Origin: a candidate division WOR-3 bacterium | GTDB taxonomy: Bacteria; SDB-A | Assembly (NCBI GenBank): GCA_016926475.1 | Contig: JAFGON010000018.1 | Coordinates: forward strand, 1-18,033 | DNA: 18,033 nt | Reading direction: 5' to 3' | Part shown: positions 1-14,139 of the stretch, piece after piece | Layout: the number at the start of each line of letters is the position of its first letter | How positions within the stretch are numbered: position 1 is the first letter of the stretch | Program-made: the position numbers and the translations under genes | Notes under the pieces: model-generated | Databases searched by the model: none | Told to the model about the DNA's origin: nothing | Seen by the model: only the letters and a program-made list of their open reading frames with translations

Positions 1-3000
1 CTGTCTTCCCGATATGTCGTAAACGGCCAGTCTGACAGGCACCTCAGAACCAACGCTGTAGCCTATGACGGTTCTGCCCCTGACCGGGTTTGGATAGACC
101 GGAGATAACGAGAAGTGGTGCCGGTCATTTAAAGGATGACCTGTCTCCTGCTCTTCGACATTCACAAGGCCCGAGGGGATGACGATGGATACATCGTCAA
201 AATAGTAACCTTCTGCGACGCCGGAAGGACCTGAGAAAAAAAGCCAGGACAATAGAATTGAACCTTCGTAATTAAAATATACGTTTTGTTTTTGCCATAC
301 TCTGTGATCACCAGTGTAAATTGAATCGTATGGAGAGTGAAGCCACGTGCCAGTGTAGCCTTCTTGAGGATACAAAAGACTCCAGGTGCTTCCTCCGTCA
401 GTGGAAGCCTGGAGTTGTACTTTGTCCGAATTGTTAAAGATTTCATACCAGTGCCAGAAAGTCAGCAATGTTCTTTCGGATGATGTAAACGAATCAAATA
501 CAACCCTGGAATTGACAATTTGCGAAGAATACTGCCATGTCCCTTCGTTGCCGCAATACATCGAATGCGAGGAACTGTGGTTCCTATGTTCGGTAATATG
601 CCACGATGCAGGTCCCTGGAATGTCCATAAAGAATCACCGTTTTCAAAACCATCGTTAAAAAGTACCCCGCCGATTCCTATGCTGCCTGAACCTTCGTAA
701 TGGTAACCTCCGTGGGAATGTCCCAGGAGATTCATTTCAACAAAAGAAGGTGTGGGAATGCTTTCAGAGACGTGTACCGTGAAAGCGCTGTCAAGAGTCA
801 AAGTATCGAAAGGGTTTATGAGGTTAGACTGTTCGAAAGAGTCGATCAGCGTTATATACGGATCGGCGCACAAAAGGTTTATCTCGAGTGATGAAATACT
901 TCCGCTGCCTGTGTTGCATATCTTAAAAGACATGGAAAAATCGTCTCCGGGCTCAATCAATTCAGGCCCCATCGCGGAAATCAAAACCAACTCAGATCCG
1001 TTTACTGTCAATGAAATTGTGCTCTCCCAGACGCTGTCATTTTGATCCCAACAGGTAAAAGTGAAAGGAACAACGTAAAGGTCCGGGATTGAATCATGAA
1101 ATGTCACCGAAAAGCCCGACGAAGAAGACGCGGTGTCGTGAGGATTGATACTGCCGAATTCGACGGTGTCCATTCCAACAGTGGCTGAAGAATCAAGTGA
1201 AACAAGAACAGCTTTTACCCCGTTGGCGGTATTCTGACCATGGTTTACAACCGATGGATAAGCCGAATATGTGAAGCCCGAGTTTATCTGCCCGTTGTCG
1301 AGGCCTCCAGTTATGGTGTCGAAATCGACTATCGTGACAAAAGCGCTTTGGGAATAGACGCACAAAGTGTCTTGGTAGTATATGCAGTCATGTGCGTAAA
1401 CAGTTAGACACATGTCATCTGCAGAGCTTATGTTGTAGTCTATAGTGGCGTTTCCCGAAGCGTCGGTAAATGCCCTTGCAAAAACCGATGAATCCGTCAA
1501 ACCTGTGATACAGCAGACAGCGCCTTCAAGGGGAAGTCCGCCTGTCTGGACGTTGACTGAAAATTGATGGTTTCCCAATTGAATACTGTCTTCATGCAGA
1601 GCGGTGATTGTATCAGGTTCTGAAAAATAGATCTGAGTTTCAGGGTCGCCCAAAAGGTTTAGTTCGTTTATGCACCAGTGGTATGAGCTGTCCATGATGG
1701 GAATGCAGTTGTCTTTGCCGACTCCGTGTCCTCTTCCTATGTTGTATAGGCTGTCCCTGAAAACTTTTCTTGCAGTCCATATATTCAGCCAGTCCGAAGG
1801 TCCCATACCGTTGCCTTCAACCGGGAGTCCCGGCAGAATTCCGTCGCCTATGCCGTACCTCGCGTTGAGCATCAGAGCTATGGATCCTCCGTTGGGCGCG
1901 TTGAAAATGTATTCAGCCAGGCATTCGTAATTGTCGAACCATCCGGGCATGCAGGCACAAGAATGGAACACAAAAAGTTTCATGCCGTTTGAAAGGGATG
2001 AAATCATAGAACTGACGAGCATTTGGGAAGGGTAACCATACCAGTAAACTCCATCCTGGTTTCCGTGGGCGGCTACGTGCACCCAATGATAACCGTTGTT
2101 AAGGGAATCAAGAAAACCGTCGGGGTGGCCGGAGTGGTTTTCGTAGAGTTTTGTGTGAGACCAGTGCAAGGGAAGGCAATTTTCAGCGATCGTATCGCAA
2201 ATCAGGCTGCCGAAGATGTTGGAGTCAGGCCAGAGCCCAGCGCCTCCTTGTAGTGATTTTTCTAGATAGCCCATAGAGGGGGTTTGCTCGTATGTGAGAA
2301 GTTTTGTTATCCAGTTTTCGGCTTCTGTGGTTGAGTTTACGGGAAACCTTCCGACGTAGACGTCGCTGTACCAGTCGCAGGAATCCTGTATGAATTCACC
2401 GTATACATGATTGCCGTTGGCGTCCCAGTTCTTGTCGTAGGGAACAACGTCGGAAAAATAGAGATCCGAAGGCATGTCTGTCGAGATTTGGAAAAAAGCG
2501 ACTTCGGAATGGATGAACCTCGCCCCCAGATTATCATTATCTCCTGCCAAGACAAGATAAATCAGGCCGTGGTTCTGATGGTAGTCCTTTACGAAATTTC
2601 TTATCTTCTCCATGTCGTCGTTGCCCTGGTAATGGCTGGAAATCCACTCTAAGCTGAATATTTTCGAGGGAATTCCTTTCTGGTTTTTCCACCGGATCAG
2701 CGGCTCAAAGCTCTGAACCAGTTCTTCCGGCGCTACTATTACGTATTCGACTTCTCCGTCTCTCGCTTCTTTCACGAGGGGGGTATTGAAACAAACATCC
2801 TGATTGTTGATAACCAGCCCCTCTACGTCCTGCGAAAATACTTCGATTTGACCTTGGGTAAGAAAAACCGGAGAAGACATACCTTCGGCGTATTCTACGA
2901 CAAGAGTGGCTTTTTTCAGGAACTGAAGTTCTTTTGTGACAGGGTTATAGCGAAAAGGCGTGTAAACAACACCGGCTATTTGAAAACCCGATTTACTTCC

Positions 3001-3393
3001 CGTGCTGAATGAAAGGACGGGATTTTCGGGATAAAAAGAGTTCTCTTCGTAAACAACACTCGATGGCCCTACAAAGGATGGATTTAAGCTCAGGGGAACA
3101 TCGGGCTGTCTTGGCAAGATGTCATAATTTCCCAGGACACTCCATTCCTGATCTTCAAGTACGGCTGATATGACGTGAGCGCCTGAAGGCAAGCTGAATC
3201 TCATGGTTTCTCCGGGTAAATCCGGGTGTCCAGTAGGCATTACAGAATTGCCTGAATAAATTATGACGTCGCCATACACCGAAGAAACTACGTCAAAATC
3301 ACTAAAGGAATTCTCAATCTGCCAGTTTATATTACCTGACGTGATATAAGTGGGTAAAACAAAAGCGATGAAAACAAAAATGCAAGCTTTCAT
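1..3393 (-). CDS. Secreted gingipain-like C25 cysteine peptidase with C-terminal sorting domain (3' end cut by window edge)
   Basis: The frame is open from an ATG at 3393 to the left edge (1131 codons, no stop). An AAGGA ribosome site precedes the ATG. Residues 1-20 form a signal peptide. Residues up to about 210 resemble a C25 pro-region. The catalytic domain follows, with His443 in VAAHGN and a Cys pair at 479/481 in HSCACMPGWF; by comparison with gingipain R (ACVNGDF) Cys481 is the likely nucleophile. After about residue 560 come beta-rich Ig/CARDB-like segments and a jelly-roll-like piece ending YYFDDVSIVI. The last visible part, from about 1093, reads YPNPVRG...VRLAVYDISGRQ, the start of a T9SS type A/FlgD-like sorting domain, so only about 40 residues should be missing. 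Role (family knowledge): exported proteolysis after Arg/Lys or related residues; the specificity here is unknown. No partner secretion genes are visible. Confidence 0.88.
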   Translation of the reverse strand, partial: MKACIFVFIAFVLPTYITSGNINWQIENSFSDFDVVSSVYGDVIIYSGNSVMPTGHPDLPGETMRFSLPSGAHVISAVLEDQEWSVLGNYDILPRQPDVPLSLNPSFVGPSSVVYEENSFYPENPVLSFSTGSKSGFQIAGVVYTPFRYNPVTKELQFLKKATLVVEYAEGMSSPVFLTQGQIEVFSQDVEGLVINNQDVCFNTPLVKEARDGEVEYVIVAPEELVQSFEPLIRWKNQKGIPSKIFSLEWISSHYQGNDDMEKIRNFVKDYHQNHGLIYLVLAGDNDNLGARFIHSEVAFFQISTDMPSDLYFSDVVPYDKNWDANGNHVYGEFIQDSCDWYSDVYVGRFPVNSTTEAENWITKLLTYEQTPSMGYLEKSLQGGAGLWPDSNIFGSLICDTIAENCLPLHWSHTKLYENHSGHPDGFLDSLNNGYHWVHVAAHGNQDGVYWYGYPSQMLVSSMISSLSNGMKLFVFHSCACMPGWFDNYECLAEYIFNAPNGGSIALMLNARYGIGDGILPGLPVEGNGMGPSDWLNIWTARKVFRDSLYNIGRGHGVGKDNCIPIMDSSYHWCINELNLLGDPETQIYFSEPDTITALHEDSIQLGNHQFSVNVQTGGLPLEGAVCCITGLTDSSVFARAFTDASGNATIDYNISSADDMCLTVYAHDCIYYQDTLCVYSQSAFVTIVDFDTITGGLDNGQINSGFTYSAYPSVVNHGQNTANGVKAVLVSLDSSATVGMDTVEFGSINPHDTASSSSGFSVTFHDSIPDLYVVPFTFTCWDQNDSVWESTISLTVNGSELVLISAMGPELIEPGDDFSMSFKICNTGSGSISSLEINLLCADPYITLIDSFEQSNLINPFDTLTLDSAFTVHVSESIPTPSFVEMNLLGHSHGGYHYEGSGSIGIGGVLFNDGFENGDSLWTFQGPASWHITEHRNHSSSHSMYCGNEGTWQYSSQIVNSRVVFDSFTSSERTLLTFWHWYEIFNNSDKVQLQASTDGGSTWSLLYPQEGYTGTWLHSPYDSIYTGDHRVWQKQNVYFNYEGSILLSWLFFSGPSGVAEGYYFDDVSIVIPSGLVNVEEQETGHPLNDRHHFSLSPVYPNPVRGRTVIGYSVGSEVPVRLAVYDISGRQ

Positions 3394-4853: not shown

Positions 4854-6449
4854 CTACTCCATGTACCTTAATTGGATATAAGGAAGAAGGCGGCCGTCTG
4901 TTTTGATGACTTCTGCGTTTTCGGCTCCGATTTCAAAATCAACAGATGTCTGTTCGTATTGATAACTCGGCCAATAACTGACTTCTATGTTGGCTTTGTA
5001 GGTGCCATTTTGGACTGTGTTACCATCGCTGTCTTTGAGGTTCCAGGTGTAGACATGGTTTCCGAGATCGATGCTCGCGCCGGTATTCGCGTCTGTTGTG
5101 AAATTGGAAGAGTTCCCCCAAAGTGGTAATGTCGTTTGAACGGCTTTGACGTTTCCGGCAAAACCCGATACGTAGATTGTTTTGATGAAATTTTCCTGAT
5201 CGTCTTCTATCCAAACAGCTGTCTGCGGCGGAAGCTCGTCTATAAAACCCAGAGAGAATTCTATTATAAGGCAAGGCTTTTCGAGGGATGAAAAGTCCAC
5301 CGTAAAGGGTCTTGGATTTAAAACTTCAAAAACCCATTGTGCTTCTTGTGAAGAGGGATAGTCGTTGACTACGTTTGTCCATTTTGAGGCGCCAAGTTTT
5401 CTGTAGCCGTATCCGATGTGAAAGAGCGCTGCAGTTTTCACCGAATCGGGAGCGTCGCTTTCAAGTATTTCGTTCAAGTCGGATATACCCTGTTCGAGTT
5501 TTCCGACGAAGAAAGGAAACTGGACACCCATGATTCCTCTCAGAAGCTTGAATTCAATATTGTCCGGCTCAATATCGAGGACTTTATCAATTTGATTCAT
5601 CGCTTTAAAACAAAGATTGGTCCTGTAATCCGTGTCTTCGGTGATGCTCTCTTCGTAAGGGGTTTCCGCCAGAGCGAGATAAACATAGGCGAGAAGCGAA
5701 AATGTTTCGACGCGGTTATCATCAAGTTCAACAGCTTTGACCAAAAGAGTTTCAGCCCGGAAATATTCCCCCTCTTCGTAAGATGATTTCGCTCTGGAGA
5801 GGAGGTCGTCTAAATCTTCAGCGGAAAAAACAGCCGTGTCTTCAACCGGCTTAAGCGGTTTAAGGCGTTCAATTTCGTCACGCGCTTTTTGAGACAATTC
5901 CAGGTCGTTGGAAAGAGAGAGCAGTTCTTCCCACACTTTAATTGCGGATTCTATGTCATCCCGCTTTTCGTATCCCTGGGCTAAATATATTCTCGCTGAT
6001 ATCAAAAGAGACGAATCTTCTTCCTCCGAAGATGTCGGTGTCAGCGCGAGAAGCGTTTCAAGATCTTTTATTCCCTTGTCCAATTTTCCCAAAAAAACCG
6101 GGACAACAACGCTCATGAAACCTCTGTAAAACAGGGCGTCGGGATTATCGGGGGCAAGCATGACCGCTTTGTCGAGTATTGAAAATGATTCAAAAGCGCG
6201 TGAAGCCTGAAGCTGGAAATCTCTTGTCTCACCTGCGCTTTTACCGATGTAAAAGCCGAGAAGCGCCAAAATTCCTGAATTTTCCGGATACGCTTCGGCA
6301 GCTTTCCTCATTAACTCAACGGCCGCTTCAGTGTTGCCTTCTGCGTTGAGTATACCCGCCTGTTCTTTGAAATCTTCGACTGTTGTTTGTGAAAAAACTG
6401 AAAATAAAGGTAAAAACAAAAAAACTGTTAAACAAATCAAAGATTTCAT
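4854..6449 (-). CDS. Exported TPR-repeat protein with C-terminal DUF2271-like domain
   Basis: 531 residues with a clear signal peptide (1-20, ending SVFSQ). Residues about 25-380 are TPR-like helical repeats. A block of about 130 residues is duplicated: ALFYRGFMSVVVPVFLGKLD in the first copy matches KLLRGIMGVQFPFFVGKLE in the second, each followed by G(I)xDL. Residues 388-531 match the DUF2271 pattern of predicted periplasmic proteins: PPQTAVWIEDDQENFIKTIY, LPLW, TGASIDLGNHVYTW, NGTYKANIEVSYWPS. The start ATG shares one base with the stop of the upstream FMN-binding gene (TAATG), which indicates translational coupling. As far as I recall, DUF2271 genes occur near flavinylation (ApbE/PepSY) genes elsewhere. 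A role in an extracytosolic flavin-linked redox complex is therefore a reasonable inference, with the TPRs as scaffold. No redox residues of its own are evident. Confidence 0.82.
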   Translation of the reverse strand: MKSLICLTVFLFLPLFSVFSQTTVEDFKEQAGILNAEGNTEAAVELMRKAAEAYPENSGILALLGFYIGKSAGETRDFQLQASRAFESFSILDKAVMLAPDNPDALFYRGFMSVVVPVFLGKLDKGIKDLETLLALTPTSSEEEDSSLLISARIYLAQGYEKRDDIESAIKVWEELLSLSNDLELSQKARDEIERLKPLKPVEDTAVFSAEDLDDLLSRAKSSYEEGEYFRAETLLVKAVELDDNRVETFSLLAYVYLALAETPYEESITEDTDYRTNLCFKAMNQIDKVLDIEPDNIEFKLLRGIMGVQFPFFVGKLEQGISDLNEILESDAPDSVKTAALFHIGYGYRKLGASKWTNVVNDYPSSQEAQWVFEVLNPRPFTVDFSSLEKPCLIIEFSLGFIDELPPQTAVWIEDDQENFIKTIYVSGFAGNVKAVQTTLPLWGNSSNFTTDANTGASIDLGNHVYTWNLKDSDGNTVQNGTYKANIEVSYWPSYQYEQTSVDFEIGAENAEVIKTDGRLLPYIQLRYME

Positions 6450-6973
6450 TATCTCTCCATTTCGATGATTTTATTGTAAAAAAAAGCCGCTTCCCAAAAA
6501 TTTTCAATAACAGCGAATGAACTTATAGTCGCTCCGGTGACTGCGTCTATTTCATAATCGTTGAAATTTCTGTTTTCTATATCCAGAAAACCGATTTTCA
6601 TTCCCGTGAATTTATCGAAAAAACTTTTTTTTTCAAGAAGAACAAAATACTGTGGGGTTTCATTGTGAGATAAAAGAAGAACCCCTATGCAAATACCGTC
6701 TGCGGAAATTCCTGTCAAGGTAATTACCGGTCCTACCAGTCCGCTGTTATCGCCCAAAAAACCGTATCCGATCAAAGAATTGTCTTTGTAGACATTGTAG
6801 TATGATGAAGTATCGAGAAATACTTTTTCGAAAGAATCAGCAAATACGAAGATTTTCTGAAGGTGAATAGTCTCCTGCGAATCTGCAGAGAGGAGAGAAG
6901 ATGTGTTAAGGCATGAAATCGAGAAATCTGAAAAAAAACAGAGGACAAACAAAACCATCGCGCTGCTTTTCAT
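6449..6973 (-). CDS. Exported FMN-binding domain protein (flavinylation motif)
   Basis: 174 residues. The hydrophobic N-terminus (1-20) is followed by Cys21 (SISC), either a weak lipobox or a plain signal peptide. The FMN_bind domain covers about 60-165: IGYGFLGDNSGLVGPVITL, the following G.I.GVLLLSHNETP segment, and DAVTGATISS at 143-152. The last matches the covalent flavinylation consensus of NqrC/RnfG-type domains, where ApbE attaches FMN to the threonine of GAT (here Thr149). Family knowledge: such domains shuttle electrons outside the cytoplasm. It is the first gene of a minus-strand run with the TPR/DUF2271 protein, to which it is coupled by a one-base overlap. No ApbE, Rnf or Nqr gene lies in the window, so the electron donor and acceptor are unknown. 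Confidence 0.85.
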   Translation of the reverse strand: MKSSAMVLFVLCFFSDFSISCLNTSSLLSADSQETIHLQKIFVFADSFEKVFLDTSSYYNVYKDNSLIGYGFLGDNSGLVGPVITLTGISADGICIGVLLLSHNETPQYFVLLEKKSFFDKFTGMKIGFLDIENRNFNDYEIDAVTGATISSFAVIENFWEAAFFYNKIIEMER

Positions 6974-7622: not shown

Positions 7623-8222
7623 TCAGGAAATTATCGATCTAATTATTTTATAGACTTCAAATCCTTCAGACAATTCGGGATGAAAAGTAGAGACGATTAT
7701 TCTGTCTTTATGCAAGAAAACCGGATCATCGTCTGAAGTGGCGAGTATTTCCACTCCATCGCCTATTTTCGATATCTTTGGAGCTCTAATAAAGACGCCT
7801 TCCGCTGTTTTTTCTTTCGTGTATTTGTGGGTTTCTTCAGTAAAGTAGATTTTTTTTACGGAAGAATCCAACTGTCTTCCATAGGCGTTTCTTTGAATCT
7901 CGATGTCTAAAAAACCCCATGGTTCAATTTTTTTCCCATTCAGGATTTTTTTTGACAAAAGTATGCTTCCGGCGCAGGTTCCGAAAACCGCTGAGCCTTT
8001 TTTAGCTTCTTCTTTTATTTTGCTGTCCAGCCCGTAAATTTTTGAAAGGAGAAAAATCGTAGACGATTCGCCTCCGGGGATTATTATCAAATCTGAAAAA
8101 GGCGGGAAATCAGAAGGTTTCCTGACAAAGAAAATTTTAGAAGCCTTGAAGTACTCTCCCGCTTTTGAAGCGTGTGAAGAGTAGTCCCCTTGAACGGCGA
8201 CTACAGATATGAATTTTACCAT
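7623..8222 (-). CDS. pdxT: Pyridoxal 5'-phosphate synthase, glutaminase subunit PdxT
   Basis: 199 residues, the usual length. Class I glutamine amidotransferase: [12 protein letters not shown] near the N-terminus, the oxyanion segment PGGESST (49-55), the nucleophile Cys83 in [10 protein letters not shown], and His181/Glu183 in STFHPELSE complete the triad. It hydrolyses glutamine and channels ammonia to PdxS within a large cytoplasmic complex that makes PLP from ribose-5-phosphate and glyceraldehyde-3-phosphate. The start ATG lies inside the last codons of pdxS (7-base overlap, with AGAGG directly before it), typical of tightly coupled subunits. Confidence 0.97.
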
Positions 8223-9091
8223 CCTCTTGTCTGAAGTTCGTCTTCCGGTGAAATTTTTGAAGAGTCAATGCCCTTCATGCCTTCTCCCAAGTCTTCTGAT
8301 ATCTCAGCTATCAATTTGGGATCGTTGTAATGAGCGACTGCCAGTACTATCGCACGTGCCCTTTTTTCCGGATCGGAAGATTTAAAAATACCGGAACCGA
8401 CAAAGACGCTCTCCGCGCCGAGTTGCATCATTAAAGACGCATCTGCGGGAGTAGCCACGCCTCCGGCGGCGAAGTTCGGAACAGGAAGTTTTCCTTTTTC
8501 AGCCACAGATCTGACCAGTGAATAAGGGGATTGAAGCTCCTTAGATTTCGACATTATTTCATCGTCTCTTAAAGTCGTCAGAAGCCGTATCTCGCTCATG
8601 ACTGTCCTCATATGCCTGACAGCGTGAATTATATCGCCCGTGCCTGCTTCGCCTTTGGTTCTTATCAGGGCGGCTCCTTCGCCGATTCTTCTTAGAGCCT
8701 CTCCGAGATTTCTGCAGCCGCAGACAAAAGGGACATCGAAAGCAAATTTATCGACGTGAAATTTATCGTCAGCAGGGGTTAGGACCTCTGATTCATCTAT
8801 AAAATCTACTCCTAATGCCTGAAGAATCTGGGCTTCGGCAAAATGGCCGATCCGGCATTTAGCCATGACAGGAATGTCTACAGATGACATGATTTCCTTG
8901 ATTTTTTTTATGCTCGCCATCCTGGCAACACCGCCCGAAGCCCTAATATCGGCCGGAACTCTCTCAAGAGCCATGACCGCGACAGCGCCTGCTTCCTGGG
9001 CTATTGTCGCCTGAACGGCGTCTGTGACATCCATGATGACTCCCCCCTTGAGCATATCGGCCAACCCGATTTTAATTTTTATCTCAGCCAT
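8216..9091 (-). CDS. pdxS: Pyridoxal 5'-phosphate synthase, lyase subunit PdxS
   Basis: 291 residues, full length, a (beta/alpha)8 enzyme of very high conservation. Catalytic residues visible: Asp21 in [10 protein letters not shown], Lys78 in [11 protein letters not shown] (Schiff base with ribose-5-phosphate), and Lys146 in [11 protein letters not shown]. The [20 protein letters not shown] segment and the SGIFKSSDP phosphate-binding region are intact. It condenses R5P, G3P and PdxT-derived ammonia to PLP (DXP-independent vitamin B6 route). A perfect AAGGAGG precedes the ATG, and an extended -10 promoter lies about 50 bases upstream. First gene of the pdxS-pdxT pair. Confidence 0.98.
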
Positions 9092-9202: not shown

Positions 9203-10282
9203 TCAGAGAATCCCTTCAGGGGCAGTGAAATAAATTTCTCCTCCTGAACTGATAAACTGCTCGAGTTGTTCCGCGAGCCATAAAATCCTTTTTGAGTCTA
9301 GGTGTAGCAAGGGATTTTCAATGAAAAGACACTTGGGCAAGGCAGAAAGAGAAAGGCAAAACGCCAGAACTCTTCTTTGTCCCGATGAAAGCCTAAAAGG
9401 ATCAGCTTCCATGATCTCTTCGGAAAAACCGGCTTTAATTGCTCTGTCGAGAAATACATCTCTATTTAAGCCTCTAAACAAGACTTCCTCTCGGATCGAG
9501 CCTGAAAAGAAAAGGCGTTCGGAGTAGCTTGGGAGAAATGAAATCGATGGTTTATTTTTCATCATTTTCCTCGTGAGTTCCGATAATTCAAGAGTATTTT
9601 GAAGCCTGTGACAATTCCCGGAACTAAAAACCTCCCGTATAATTTTCAAATAAGACTCTTCTCCGGGAATTGTTTCCAAAACCTTCATCCTGCCGTTTTC
9701 AATTAAAAAGTTTTTCTGTGTAAAACCTTTGAAAAATGAAGGAAATTGAGTTACAAAAAGGCTTCCTACGCAGTTTTCTGAGACAAGGCCGATAAAATTC
9801 TGTCTCTCAGCGGAAGACAAATTTACAAAAACTTCATCGAAAAGAATGAATTTTTTGCCGGAAACTAAAAATCCTGCTGTAAAAAGGTTTAAAAGGTCGC
9901 TGTGCGACATACCATAAGTGCATTTGTCCTTTAACGACCATTCGTGCATTGTTTTTAAAATAAGATTATCCTCCAGGGGTTGTTTTCTAAGGCAAGCGCT
10001 GAATCTTAGTTCTTTTTGAGATGAAGTAAACACTGTTTGGCTGAAAATGTCCTGTCTTACAAGTCCCACGAAAGGAACAACGTCTTGGGTGTTTTCACCG
10101 ACGCATATTTTCCCTGAATCAGGAGGTAAAAGTCCCGACAAAATAAACAAAAAAGTACTCTTTCCTGAGCCAATTTCACCGGAAACGGTAATTATTGAAT
10201 TTTCGCCTAACTCAAAGCTTATATCATTTAAAAATTTCTCTTTATTCCAAGAAAATGATATATTTTCAGCGAAGAGTTTCAT
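9203..10282 (-). CDS. Tandem ABC ATPase, CbiO/EcfA-like, with complementary degenerate halves
   Basis: 359 residues holding two ABC nucleotide-binding halves. The first (1-200) has Walker A GEIGSGKST (35-43), Q-loop Gln77 and Walker B FILFDE (145-150). Its signature is lost (YGMSHSDL near 123-130), and Gln179 stands where the H-switch is expected. The second (about 245-359) starts only at the Q-loop region, with no Walker A at all. It has a good signature LSSGQ (298-302) and an altered Walker B, LFIENP, where the usual DE is EN. Pairing half 1 with the half-2 signature would give one complete ATP site and one dead site. Energy-coupling-factor ATPases drive vitamin or metal uptake with a T and an S subunit; none is encoded nearby, so the substrate is unknown. 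It is divergent from guaA, with 45 bases between the starts. Confidence 0.82.
   Translation of the reverse strand: MKLFAENISFSWNKEKFLNDISFELGENSIITVSGEIGSGKSTFLFILSGLLPPDSGKICVGENTQDVVPFVGLVRQDIFSQTVFTSSQKELRFSACLRKQPLEDNLILKTMHEWSLKDKCTYGMSHSDLLNLFTAGFLVSGKKFILFDEVFVNLSSAERQNFIGLVSENCVGSLFVTQFPSFFKGFTQKNFLIENGRMKVLETIPGEESYLKIIREVFSSGNCHRLQNTLELSELTRKMMKNKPSISFLPSYSERLFFSGSIREEVLFRGLNRDVFLDRAIKAGFSEEIMEADPFRLSSGQRRVLAFCLSLSALPKCLFIENPLLHLDSKRILWLAEQLEQFISSGGEIYFTAPEGIL
10256..10264 (+). promoter_or_regulatory. Candidate extended -10 promoter for guaA
   Basis: TGATATATT on the plus strand (TATATT at 10259-10264) has the TGn extension but almost no -35. It sits 64 bases before the guaA GTG, inside the divergent ABC gene. 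Confidence 0.3.
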
Positions 10283-10327
10283 AGATTAGGGGTTAACACG
10301 CACAAAAGTAAAAGAAAAGAGGAAATT

Positions 10328-12136
10328 GTGCCCGATAAAATAGCTGTTATTGATTTCGGAGGACAATACGCTCATCTAATTGCCACTAAAGTCAGAGAAG
10401 CGGGTGTTTACGCGGAAATTTTAGAACCAGATCACGACGTTGAATTACTGCGTAGTTACAAGGGATTGATTCTTTCGGGAAGCCCCGCTCTCAGTTCTCA
10501 GGATGAATTTGCCATGAATGGCGACATATTCACTGGAGGAGTTCCGATACTCGGTTTTTGTTTCGGTCATCAGGAAATTGCTAAATTTCACGGGGGCAAA
10601 ATTGAGCACAAAGGGCAGGAATACGGCAGAAGTGTCTTGCGGATAACAGCGGAATCGCCTTTATTCGAAGGTCTTTCAAAAGAAGAAACAGTGTGGATGA
10701 GCCATGGAGACGCGGTTGTTTCTCCCGGGGATATGGAAGAAATCGGAGTTTCTGTCTCTCCGGACGGTAAAATCCAGAGGTATTCCGCACTCCAGCATAT
10801 GCCCTTAAAGCATTTCGGGTTACAGTTTCATCCTGAAGTCGACGATACTCCAAACGGCAAAAAAATGATTGAAAACTTTGTCCTGAAAATTTGTTCTTGT
10901 CGAAAATCATGGACCCAGAAGACTATTCTTGACACTATAGAAAACAGCCTGGGGAAAAACACTCTGCACAAAAAAGTGGTAATGCTCGTCAGCGGAGGAG
11001 TAGATTCAACCGTGGCGGCGGTCCTACTCGGAAAATTTCTTCCCTCCGAAAACCTCCATTTCATTCATATTGACACGGGTCTGATGAGAGAAAACGAAAG
11101 CGCTGAGGTCATATCGCTTTTTGAAAGGCAAGGGTTGCTAAACAGCATGGAATTCATCGATGCTTCAAGAAAATTTCTGAGTAAGCTTGAAGGCATAAGC
11201 GACCCTGAAGAAAAAAGAAAAATAATAGGAGATACTTTCGTAGAGGTATCTCAGGATCTAATAGAGAATTCCTCTGAAGACGAAAGTTTTGTACTGGGCC
11301 AGGGAACTATATATCCCGACAGAATTGAGACTGGCGGATCCAAGCATGCCAATAGAATAAAGACTCACCACAACAGAGTCCCTCTCATAGAGGAAATGAT
11401 AAAAGAAGGAAGGGTGGTTGAACCAATAAAGGATCTATACAAAAAAGAGGTCAGAGATTTAGGATCAAATCTCGGTATACCTTCGGAATTTTTAAAAAGG
11501 CATCCTTTCCCCGGTCCTGGTCTGGGCGTGAGGTGTGTTTGTTCTGATGGTTTAGTCGAGAACAACGAATTTGAAAAGGTGAAAAAAAGTTTGGCTACAA
11601 TTCACAGGGGAGCATTTAAATTAGGCGCGATTCCGATTAAATCAGTCGGTGTAAAAGGTGACTTGCGAAGCTATGAATTTACCGCCACTGTGTGTTCTGA
11701 AAAATATGATTTATCGGAAGGATCAATTTTTGCAAACGTAGTTTTCCGTTTTGCAAAAGGCGTTAACAGAGTTCTCTGGATGTTTGGCTTAAAAGAACTT
11801 CCGGAATTTAAACCGCGTAGAGCTTACATCACTCCGGATAGGCTTCAATTGCTAAGAAAAGCCGATAAAAAAGCAAATGACCTGCTTCTGAAACACCGCG
11901 TATACGAAGAGATTTGGCAGATGCCTGTGATTATGCTGCCCGTGAAGGTAAATGGGTTAGATGCGGAAATAATCGTACTAAGACCTGTCCGTTCCGAAAG
12001 AGGAATGACGGCGAGACCGTATTTTTTGAGCGAAAATTTCATGAGAGAAATGGATGTTTCCTTAAAGGAAACAGGTTCGCATCTCCTCGCTTTTGATTTA
12101 TCATCAAAACCGCCAGCTACAATAGAATGGGAATGA
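10328..12136 (+). CDS. guaA: GMP synthase (glutamine-hydrolysing), long form
   Basis: 602 residues from a GTG with GAGGA upstream. The N-terminal class I amidotransferase has Cys78 in LGFCFGHQEIA and His168/Glu170 in LQFHPEVD. The ATP-pyrophosphatase domain has the P-loop SGGVDS (222-227), then FVLGQGTIYPDRIE and HPFPGPGLGVR. The C-terminal dimerisation domain ends PPATIEWE. It converts XMP, ATP and glutamine to GMP. Ordinary bacterial GuaA is about 510-525 residues. This one carries about 80-90 extra residues after HPFPGPGLGVR, with IPIKSVGVKGDLRSYEF and NRVLWMFG, in the same place and with similar motifs as the insertion in human GMPS. Long forms also occur in some bacteria such as Leptospira. 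No frameshift or damage is seen. Confidence 0.97.
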   Translation: MPDKIAVIDFGGQYAHLIATKVREAGVYAEILEPDHDVELLRSYKGLILSGSPALSSQDEFAMNGDIFTGGVPILGFCFGHQEIAKFHGGKIEHKGQEYGRSVLRITAESPLFEGLSKEETVWMSHGDAVVSPGDMEEIGVSVSPDGKIQRYSALQHMPLKHFGLQFHPEVDDTPNGKKMIENFVLKICSCRKSWTQKTILDTIENSLGKNTLHKKVVMLVSGGVDSTVAAVLLGKFLPSENLHFIHIDTGLMRENESAEVISLFERQGLLNSMEFIDASRKFLSKLEGISDPEEKRKIIGDTFVEVSQDLIENSSEDESFVLGQGTIYPDRIETGGSKHANRIKTHHNRVPLIEEMIKEGRVVEPIKDLYKKEVRDLGSNLGIPSEFLKRHPFPGPGLGVRCVCSDGLVENNEFEKVKKSLATIHRGAFKLGAIPIKSVGVKGDLRSYEFTATVCSEKYDLSEGSIFANVVFRFAKGVNRVLWMFGLKELPEFKPRRAYITPDRLQLLRKADKKANDLLLKHRVYEEIWQMPVIMLPVKVNGLDAEIIVLRPVRSERGMTARPYFLSENFMREMDVSLKETGSHLLAFDLSSKPPATIEWE

Positions 12137-12183: not shown

Positions 12184-14139
12184 ATGAAAAAGAAATTTAT
12201 CGTTTTATTGTTTTTAGCCGTGCTACTGTTGGCGCCGCTCGGCGTGCTTACGGCGAGAGCCGGAGGCGGAGAGTCTTATGGAGGCGGTGGAGGTGGTGGA
12301 GGTGGTGGAGGCTCTTTCGGCGGAGGGGGGTCCGGCGGAGACGGTGGGGGTGAGCTCATCCTTTGCTTGATATGGCTGATAATAAAGTATCCCTGTATTG
12401 GTATTCCGCTGACTGTATTTCTGATAATTATGGCGATAGTCGCAAAAGTTAAAGGTTCCGGAGCGATAACCGACAGAAATCTCAAAAGGGCTCAAAAAGC
12501 TGTCAAGAGCAGGAATGTCGATAAAAACTTGAATTCACTGATCGCCAAAGATCCTAATTTTTCTCTTGAATCAATGAAGACCAGAGTCGCCACGGCATTT
12601 CTTGCCATCCAAAAGGCATGGAGCAATCAGGACCTGAAAAAAGTTACGGCGTTCATGTCCGACGGAGTCTACGAAAGGTTTTCTCTGCAGATTGACATGC
12701 AGAAAGCTGAAGGCTGGAGAAACATCATGGAAAACGTCATAGTTCAAAACATTGAACTGGTGTCCGCCCTGACGGACAGGAATTTTGATACTCTGCATTT
12801 CAGTGTAAAGGCGAAAGCCAAAGATTACAAAGTCAACATAGCTACAGGAAGGACGATACCGGGGTCGATGATCAACGACAGCTTTACAGAAATATGGACT
12901 TTTTTGAGGAAAGCGGACGTCAAAACATTAGGAAAAAAAGGCGCTTTTGAGGGTAATTGCCCAAACTGCGCCGCGCCTCTTGAAATTACTGACGCAGGTA
13001 CCTGCAAAGCTTGCAACGCATTCGTCAGAAGTCCGTCCTACGACTGGATTCTTTCCGAGATAACGCAAGTCGAAGAATGGGAACCCCGCTCTTCCGAATC
13101 CTCTGTATATATCAAAAACGAGTTGTCGGATAAAGACCCGCATTTTTCCACACAGTTCATTGAAGACAGAGCATCCGTGATTTTTTACCGCTATCAGTCG
13201 GCGCTTTTCACTGGAAATGCAGTTCATTTAAAAAAAGTGGCGTTTCCTCAAGAATACGGGAAACTCGAAGCACAGATCGCAAGAAACAAAAACGGCGATA
13301 CAGCACCTTATTACAGGTTCCCAGCAGTCGGGAAATCCGAGACCCTTTGGGTTCAGGCAGGGGATGAAATGGATAAGATACACGTTTTGATAAAATGGTC
13401 CGGAAGCGCGGCCGAGAGAAGTATTTCAACAGGTAAAACTCATGACACGGGACCGAGGTCGATAAGAATGACGGTTTTCACCCTTATTAGAAAATCAGGC
13501 GTTCTTTCCCCTTCGGATTCTTTCGCTTCTTCTCATTGTCCAAACTGCGGAGCTCCGGAAGTAAGAGATTCAAGAGACGTCTGCCCTTATTGCGGAACGG
13601 TTCTCAATGACGGCAGCAGATCCTGGGTTCTTGGCGACATGCAGGATTATTCCCATTGGATTAGGGAAAACAGACAAAAATGGACAGAAGAAAGTCAAAA
13701 ATCTGTTCTGAGCCAATCCAATAATCCTTACTCGGTCGTAGAAGCGCTTGCGGCAATGATGTTTGCTGACGGAAACGTCGATGAAACCGAGAAAAAAACT
13801 CTTTCAAAGTTTGCCTTAAAATACAACATATCCGGTTCATCTTTAGATGATATTGTAAAGAGAGCTTCTTCAGGTCAATGGACATGGAGCATTCCGGAAG
13901 ACAAAGAGCAGAAGAGTCAATTTCTTCATGCCTTGATTGACATGGCTCTCAGCGACGGAAGGGTTAGTTCAAGCGAATGGAAAATACTTAAAAAAGTAGC
14001 TTACAATTCTTCTATAGATGATGTGATGTTGAAAAAAATTGTCATAGAAAGGCAAAAAGCCCTCATACAATTCGGAAAGAATTATTTTAAAAAGACAGAC
14101 AAAAACATCGACCCTCCTCCCCCTGAAAATTGGGAGTGA
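12184..14139 (+). CDS. Exported or membrane-anchored Tim44-like protein with two zinc ribbons and TerB-like C-terminus
   Basis: 651 residues; the ATG follows GGGGGT. Order of parts: signal-like helix (1-26), Gly/Ser-rich stretch (27-56, including 11 consecutive Gly), membrane helix (about 58-86), Tim44-like domain (about 115-225, MKTRVATAFLAIQKAWSNQD and FMSDGVYERF), zinc ribbon 1 (C259, C262, C274, C277), a second Tim44-like segment (about 315-445, RASVIFYRYQSALFTGNA), zinc ribbon 2 (C452, C455, C467, C470), and a TerB-like domain (about 515-640) with AMMFADGNVDETEK and DMALSDGRVSSSEW, two acidic metal-site-like motifs. Family knowledge: Tim44-like domains bind membranes or lipids, and TerB domains occur in stress and metal-resistance proteins. 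The overall function is unknown. It follows guaA by 47 bases and may share its transcript. Confidence 0.8.
   Translation: MKKKFIVLLFLAVLLLAPLGVLTARAGGGESYGGGGGGGGGGGSFGGGGSGGDGGGELILCLIWLIIKYPCIGIPLTVFLIIMAIVAKVKGSGAITDRNLKRAQKAVKSRNVDKNLNSLIAKDPNFSLESMKTRVATAFLAIQKAWSNQDLKKVTAFMSDGVYERFSLQIDMQKAEGWRNIMENVIVQNIELVSALTDRNFDTLHFSVKAKAKDYKVNIATGRTIPGSMINDSFTEIWTFLRKADVKTLGKKGAFEGNCPNCAAPLEITDAGTCKACNAFVRSPSYDWILSEITQVEEWEPRSSESSVYIKNELSDKDPHFSTQFIEDRASVIFYRYQSALFTGNAVHLKKVAFPQEYGKLEAQIARNKNGDTAPYYRFPAVGKSETLWVQAGDEMDKIHVLIKWSGSAAERSISTGKTHDTGPRSIRMTVFTLIRKSGVLSPSDSFASSHCPNCGAPEVRDSRDVCPYCGTVLNDGSRSWVLGDMQDYSHWIRENRQKWTEESQKSVLSQSNNPYSVVEALAAMMFADGNVDETEKKTLSKFALKYNISGSSLDDIVKRASSGQWTWSIPEDKEQKSQFLHALIDMALSDGRVSSSEWKILKKVAYNSSIDDVMLKKIVIERQKALIQFGKNYFKKTDKNIDPPPPENWE

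Follow-up and report, generated by a model that had tools for sequence, protein, structure and literature searches.

A tandem ABC ATPase with one composite ATP site as the putative motor of a divergent ECF-type importer in a candidate division WOR-3 bacterium

Introduction

In known ECF (energy-coupling factor) modules, two ATPases closing on ATP push coupling helices and expel the S component (PMC10368641). The T unit carries two X-Arg-X signatures, which anchor in EcfA and EcfA' respectively, and a canonical module that lacked either catalytic Glu had neither ATPase activity nor transport (PMC10368641). Group II modules (EcfA-EcfA'-EcfT) such as ECF-FolT2 of L. delbrueckii combine ECF-type ATPases with a shared T unit and with S components encoded elsewhere, and have ecfT beside truA. 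Tandem EcfA fusions are found in Firmicutes (e.g. Enterococcus, L041; Tetragenococcus, L042; rumen Ruminiclostridium, L066), where one chain holds two EcfA halves, both with full Walker A, Q-loop, LSGGQ, DE and His, and is encoded next to EcfT and often next to an S component as well. In BioMNY of Rhodobacter capsulatus, the S unit BioY works with an A and a T unit, and BioM is a complete NBD that forms a homodimer. The BioMNY T unit uses its X-Arg-X signatures to contact the stretch that follows the Q-loop; for some BioY proteins (subgroup I), A and T units are dispensable (PMC3246461).

Among exporters and in CFTR, one-site asymmetry has been described, through substitutions in complete NBDs (PMC6533308; PMC12038006). 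In Pdr5, CFTR, TM287/288 and MsRv1273c/72c, all losses lie in one composite site and one catalytic site is left, with the degenerate site still able to bind ATP. Neither an asymmetric ECF ATPase nor an ECF-type A unit with a deleted P-loop subdomain was found in the open literature that we searched.

Here we describe a tandem asymmetric ABC ATPase of ECF type from a candidate division WOR-3 bacterium. Its gene lies in a window (the whole stretch of DNA analysed, 18,033 nucleotides) which is a complete contig (C18) of a 2.15 Mb genome estimated to be 100% complete. Our reading, to which we assign a probability of roughly two in three, is that the gene encodes the whole ATPase unit, in one chain, of a divergent ECF vitamin importer with a single ATP site, that the T unit is encoded far away beside truA, and that the importer probably serves BioY and biotin.

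Results

The gene and its neighbours

The gene (9203..10282, minus strand; ATG at 10282, stop at 9203) encodes 359 amino acids and lies between guaA and pdxS in all four genomes of our phylum sample, which comprises the window's own genome (G000) and three relatives. Full-length orthologues are present in all three relatives, at 48, 47 and 31% identity to the window protein. The divergent neighbour guaA (10328..12136, plus strand), conserved in 4/4 genomes, is separated from the ATPase start codon by 45 bp (10283-10327), and the ATPase gene has no obvious ribosome-binding site. The guaA product is long (602 aa), a form that the other genomes of the sample share, and gives weak scores for the GMP-synthase C-terminal and ATP-pyrophosphatase domains. 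Downstream of the ATPase gene lie pdxS (8216..9091, minus strand; Pfam SOR_SNZ), likewise a conserved neighbour in the four genomes, and pdxT. Since a promoter-like stretch precedes pdxS, which also has a ribosome-binding site of its own, an operon shared with the ATPase is only putative. In one relative (G003) a putative DUF89/ARMT1-like gene, assigned from reading of the sequence (L040 9220-10119, minus strand), stands between the ATPase gene and pdxS.

Other genes of the window are noted for completeness. Near pdxT, a protein with TPR and DUF2271 and an FMN-binding-domain protein lie side by side (together 4854-6973, minus strand), and the same pair occurs in G001 (L111). A large C25 (gingipain family) peptidase with a propeptide (1-3393, minus strand) is cut by the contig end, and its C-terminal residues are similar to a secretion-sorting tail. 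Downstream of guaA (12184-14139, plus strand) is a Gly-rich secreted or membrane protein with Tim44-like, zinc-ribbon and TerB-like domains, of which G003 has a tandem duplicate (L040 1979-6003).

One composite ATP site is kept and the other is lost

The protein can be divided into a nucleotide-binding NBD (half 1, residues 1-202; 9677..10282; Pfam ABC_tran, E 2.7e-13 at residues 18-151), a poorly conserved linker (residues 203-244; 9551..9676) and a reduced half 2 (residues 245-359; 9206..9550), all on the minus strand, as are the motifs that follow. Half 1 keeps Walker A (GEIGSGKST, residues 35-43; 10154..10180), the invariant Q-loop Gln77 (10052..10054), and Walker B with the catalytic Glu (FILFDE, residues 145-150; 9833..9850), of which D149 and E150 are invariant. 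Its signature is lost, the degenerate MSHSD (residues 125-129; 9896..9910) aligning with the LSGGQ or LSGGE of intact tandem EcfA proteins. Its D-loop Asp is also lost (S156 in the window protein, Ser or Gly across the orthologues), and at the switch position His is replaced by Gln179 (9746..9748), a Gln that is invariant in the four genomes.

Half 2 consists only of a Q-loop strand, a helical subdomain, the signature, a Walker B strand and the D-loop. In the alignment with intact tandem EcfA it has a gap where the strand, Walker A and P-loop helix are expected; the linker spans the place of this deleted subdomain, and no Walker A occurs beyond residue 43 of the 359-aa protein. The signature (LSSGQ, residues 298-302; 9377..9391) and the invariant D-loop Asp329 (9296..9298) are kept. 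The Walker B and catalytic position is degenerate (ENP, residues 322-324, within FIENP at 320-324; 9311..9319), with EN or EH standing for DE; the Q-loop Gln has become an invariant Pro251, and the switch His is absent.

We scored seven elements per site, with 13 intact tandem EcfA proteins as reference. Five were counted in cis (Walker A, the Gln of the Q-loop, the Asp of Walker B, the catalytic Glu and the switch His) and two in trans (the signature and the D-loop Asp). Site I (half 1 in cis, half 2 in trans) keeps six of the seven, the sole change being the switch His to Gln179, and site II (half 2 in cis, half 1 in trans) keeps none. The losses are therefore confined to one composite site, as in an asymmetric ABC ATPase. 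Under random loss, the chance that all 6 kept elements (of 14) would fall in one site is ~0.005, a rough figure, the elements not being independent. The preliminary description had listed GEIGSGKST, Q77 and FILFDE but no LSGGQ for the first half, and no Walker A, ENP as Walker B and a good LSSGQ for the second, and had argued that these complementary losses leave one composite ATP site. All of this was borne out, with MSHSD now placed at the LSGGQ position and the P-loop subdomain of half 2 found to be wholly gone; the D-loop Asp, the switch His and Pro251 in the half-2 Q-loop, absent from that description, agree with the same partition.

The surviving site may hydrolyse ATP slowly or poorly, given Gln179 in place of the switch His; in an asymmetric exporter, the degenerate site is the one listed with Gln at the switch position (PMC12038006). 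Taken further, this would make the protein an asymmetric ATP switch, whose one site binds ATP but hardly hydrolyses it, with binding closing the dimer and the system running on binding and slow release. Such a protein would suit the exchange of His for Gln in 4/4 genomes, and in an ECF riboflavin transporter the binding of Mg-ATP, not its hydrolysis, was reported to be enough to expel the S component (PMC10368641). We nevertheless regard it as somewhat unlikely, as Glu150 and Asp329 are invariant, which would be unexpected were hydrolysis dispensable, and as resetting the cycle requires removal of the nucleotide.

Predicted fold

A first AF2 run with three orthologues reached a pLDDT of 57.8 overall, with half 2 mostly at 80-94 and half 1 unresolved. 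The top Foldseek matches to this model in the PDB were mostly EcfA and CbiO chains, only half 2 being confident in it. When 13 intact tandem EcfA proteins were included in the alignment, the pLDDT was 90 and the pTM 0.87; these extra rows may bias the model toward a dimer arrangement. The confident model superposes on ATP-bound 8wdb_D over 348/359 residues (3.0 Å, Z 28.0), and its residues 1-359, taken as one body, also fit ATP-closed EttA-EQ2, ABCB1 and CFTR E1371Q well. From this one-body superposition on ATP-closed tandem NBDs, the halves are predicted to be placed as a head-to-tail ATP sandwich. Residues 245-359 thus face the first half in the confident model, as the preliminary description supposed when it proposed that the second half has shrunk to a site-completing partner; the motif partition, the conservation described below and the AF2 model all support that proposal.

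A candidate EcfT beside truA

Neither a T nor an S gene was found in the window or in the examined neighbourhoods of the three relatives, so that the absence of nearby T and S components, noted from the outset, holds for this 18-kb contig. A search of the full genome for orphan EcfT and S subunits, as had been suggested at the same time, brought to light a putative divergent EcfT beside truA and one BioY in each of the four genomes.

At the default threshold, the CbiQ profile found no EcfT in any of the genomes. A relaxed search gave one weak match, in G003 (E 0.004, 17.4 bits against a cut-off of 25), and none in G000 and G002. The matching protein is a membrane protein encoded immediately 5' of truA, and it was this weak match that opened up a truA-linked EcfT-like family, with a member directly 5' of truA in 4/4 genomes (L107, L108, L109, L110). 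The member of the window's genome (G000:C21:71405-72001, L107) has a TTG start and lies under the CbiQ cut-off. The position adjacent to truA is that of ecfT in Firmicutes, e.g. in Oenococcus (L070), where the order is ecfA1-ecfA2-ecfT-truA. A profile alignment of the EcfT-like proteins with six EcfT covers 207 columns and scores 32.9, whereas 300 column shuffles gave 12.7 ± 2.1 (maximum 19.6), with none reaching the observed score. As the HHalign probability of this alignment is only 35%, the argument for an EcfT rests on the shuffles and the truA linkage; a search of PDB sequences with the EcfT profile gave no useful match.

The second X-Arg-X signature, S-R-G (S-R175-G in the window's genome), is invariant in all four EcfT-like proteins. 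In the first signature, the Arg is replaced by Phe or Asn in the three genomes of the window's genus (F139 in the window's genome) and is kept in G003. Since the two signatures of known modules anchor in EcfA and EcfA' respectively (PMC10368641), the loss of one ATP site may have been accompanied by that of one EcfT anchor. BioN, in contrast, keeps both Arg signatures, where the EcfT-like protein keeps only the second in 3/4 genomes.

BioY and biotin

Each of the four genomes has one BioY, at 114-146 bits and above the Pfam cut-off (G000:C40:8716-9138, L144, in the window's genome; L145-L147 in the relatives). Around BioY, no biotin synthesis genes were seen in the four genomes, nor did any of these genomes have a BioB above cut-off; the four phylum members are probable biotin auxotrophs. 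Searches with PF12822 for other S components returned weak or broken matches only, with nothing else credible. No canonical EcfA was recognised in the four genomes either, the best other ECF-profile matches that were inspected being of the FtsE, MlaF, MacB and LolD types. The presence of BioY and the apparent absence of BioB point to biotin as the probable substrate. The co-occurrence of the ATPase, the EcfT-like protein and BioY in four genomes suggests a partnership between them, the three genes being unlinked.

It is rather improbable that the ATPase and the EcfT-like protein instead form an ECF-type module for another, unrecognised substrate, with BioY working alone or otherwise. Subgroup I BioY can do without A and T units (PMC3246461), and the pdxS-pdxT pair, which adjoins the ATPase gene in 4/4 genomes, could hint at vitamin B6. 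However, the pdx genes make B6 and do not import it, pdxS seemingly has its own promoter, and BioY is the only S component that the PF12822 search recognised.

Relationship to ECF ATPases

The best of 162 NCBIfam families for the whole protein was ECF_ATPase_2 (E 9.8e-19), which also ranked first for half 2 alone (E 8.4e-7); for the G003 orthologue, ECF_ATPase_1 ranked first. The closest relation thus appears, by profile scores, to be to the ECF ATPases rather than to other ABC subfamilies. However, the score of 67.5 bits does not reach the NCBIfam ECF cut-off of 330 bits, and the definition by Walker A, Walker B, LSGGQ and His motif in both NBDs (PMC3246461) does not cover a protein in which half 1 lacks LSGGQ and His and half 2 lacks Walker A, DE and His. 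We therefore describe it as related to ECF A components. Of the "minimal asymmetric ECF ATPase" first proposed, what stands is that ECF profiles score best, at values far under the curated family cut-offs.

EttA and other ABC-F proteins also came high in sequence and fold searches, as might be expected of a soluble ABC protein (ABC-F-like or regulatory) that serves no membrane transporter. This is improbable: the curated ECF profile outscores EttA for both the whole protein and half 2, no ABC-F interdomain linker was seen, and these genomes also share a conserved EcfT-like protein.

Conservation of the asymmetric form

The complementary loss pattern is common to all four phylum genomes; none of the three relatives has a normal second half, a feature which the preliminary description had named as a sign that the window's copy is simply decayed. 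Invariant columns across the four genomes amount to 37/202 in half 1, 25/111 in half 2 and 1/42 in the linker, and dN is 0.37-0.47 in half 2, 0.39-0.42 in half 1 and >1 in the linker, with dS high or saturated. Half 2 is under purifying selection and constrained like half 1, and the linker is not. The same pattern in all relatives, together with the constraint on half 2, marks a maintained protein and not a decayed copy. Decay of an ECF ATPase, or the misassembly of a single genome, is hardly credible despite the many lost motifs and is excluded by conservation, with identical losses in four independently assembled genomes, at identities down to 31%, and with half 2 far richer in invariant columns than the linker and as low in dN as half 1.

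Outside the phylum, the same half-loss was not found among 386 sampled genomes, in which matches span half 1 only. A motif-limited scan of 84,980 species, which could miss relatives that are weaker or differently patterned, gave strong full-length matches to two phylum members only. Two of the four genomes are public, one as candidate division WOR-3 isolate Zod_Metabat.185 and the other as Desulfuromonas sp. SDB.

Discussion

Among described systems, the Firmicutes tandem EcfA fusions can be aligned end to end with the window's protein and likewise have two EcfA halves per chain and a partner EcfT protein, as proposed here. The fusions differ in having both sites intact, where one is erased in the window's protein; in their complete half 2, which here lacks the P-loop subdomain; and in their gene order, the window's ATPase gene not adjoining EcfT. 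The Group II modules resemble the proposed system in having ATPases of the ECF type and a shared T unit, in encoding the S component elsewhere and in placing ecfT beside truA, but in the window's genome the ATPase and T genes are unlinked, and its ATPase has one catalytic Glu where ECF-FolT2 needs both (PMC10368641). BioMNY has the proposed composition, in which BioY is the S unit beside A and T units, but its BioM homodimer stands against an asymmetric single chain here. The asymmetric exporters and CFTR share with the window's protein the confinement of all losses to one composite site; they are exporters or channels with complete NBDs, whereas this protein is ECF-like and has its second P-loop subdomain deleted.

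For the proposed importer we infer ATP binding and hydrolysis, a physical complex, the substrate and a one-ATP cycle, as follows. Half 1 would bind ATP via Walker A, Q77 and D149/E150, and half 2, an EcfA remnant folded on half 1, would contribute LSSGQ and Asp329 to close site I, the second ATP site being no longer present. Closing on a single ATP, the pseudo-dimer would pull the coupling helices of the divergent EcfT, and this pull would expel or reset the S component, most likely BioY, leading to biotin import. Hydrolysis would depend on the kept E150, and Gln179 at the switch position may slow it. As either Glu is essential in the canonical module (PMC10368641), a one-site module would be an exception, and the window's system would either have evolved a one-site cycle or run mainly on ATP binding. 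We put forward tentatively, at somewhat less than even odds, that it is a natural one-ATP ECF motor, in which NBD2 acts as a signature lid, one ATP per cycle drives the S component, and EcfT has lost an Arg anchor in step.

Known ECF modules have two ATP sites, and the window's lineage would be a natural test of whether one suffices. If the reading is true, one kept and one deleted site would show which parts of the ABC dimer couple ATP to transport, and the 359-aa protein would be a minimal natural construct for testing whether a single ATP is sufficient. The EcfT-like protein would be a T unit missed by standard profiles, and the proposed importer would explain how BioY could be used by a bacterium in which no canonical EcfA genes are recognised.
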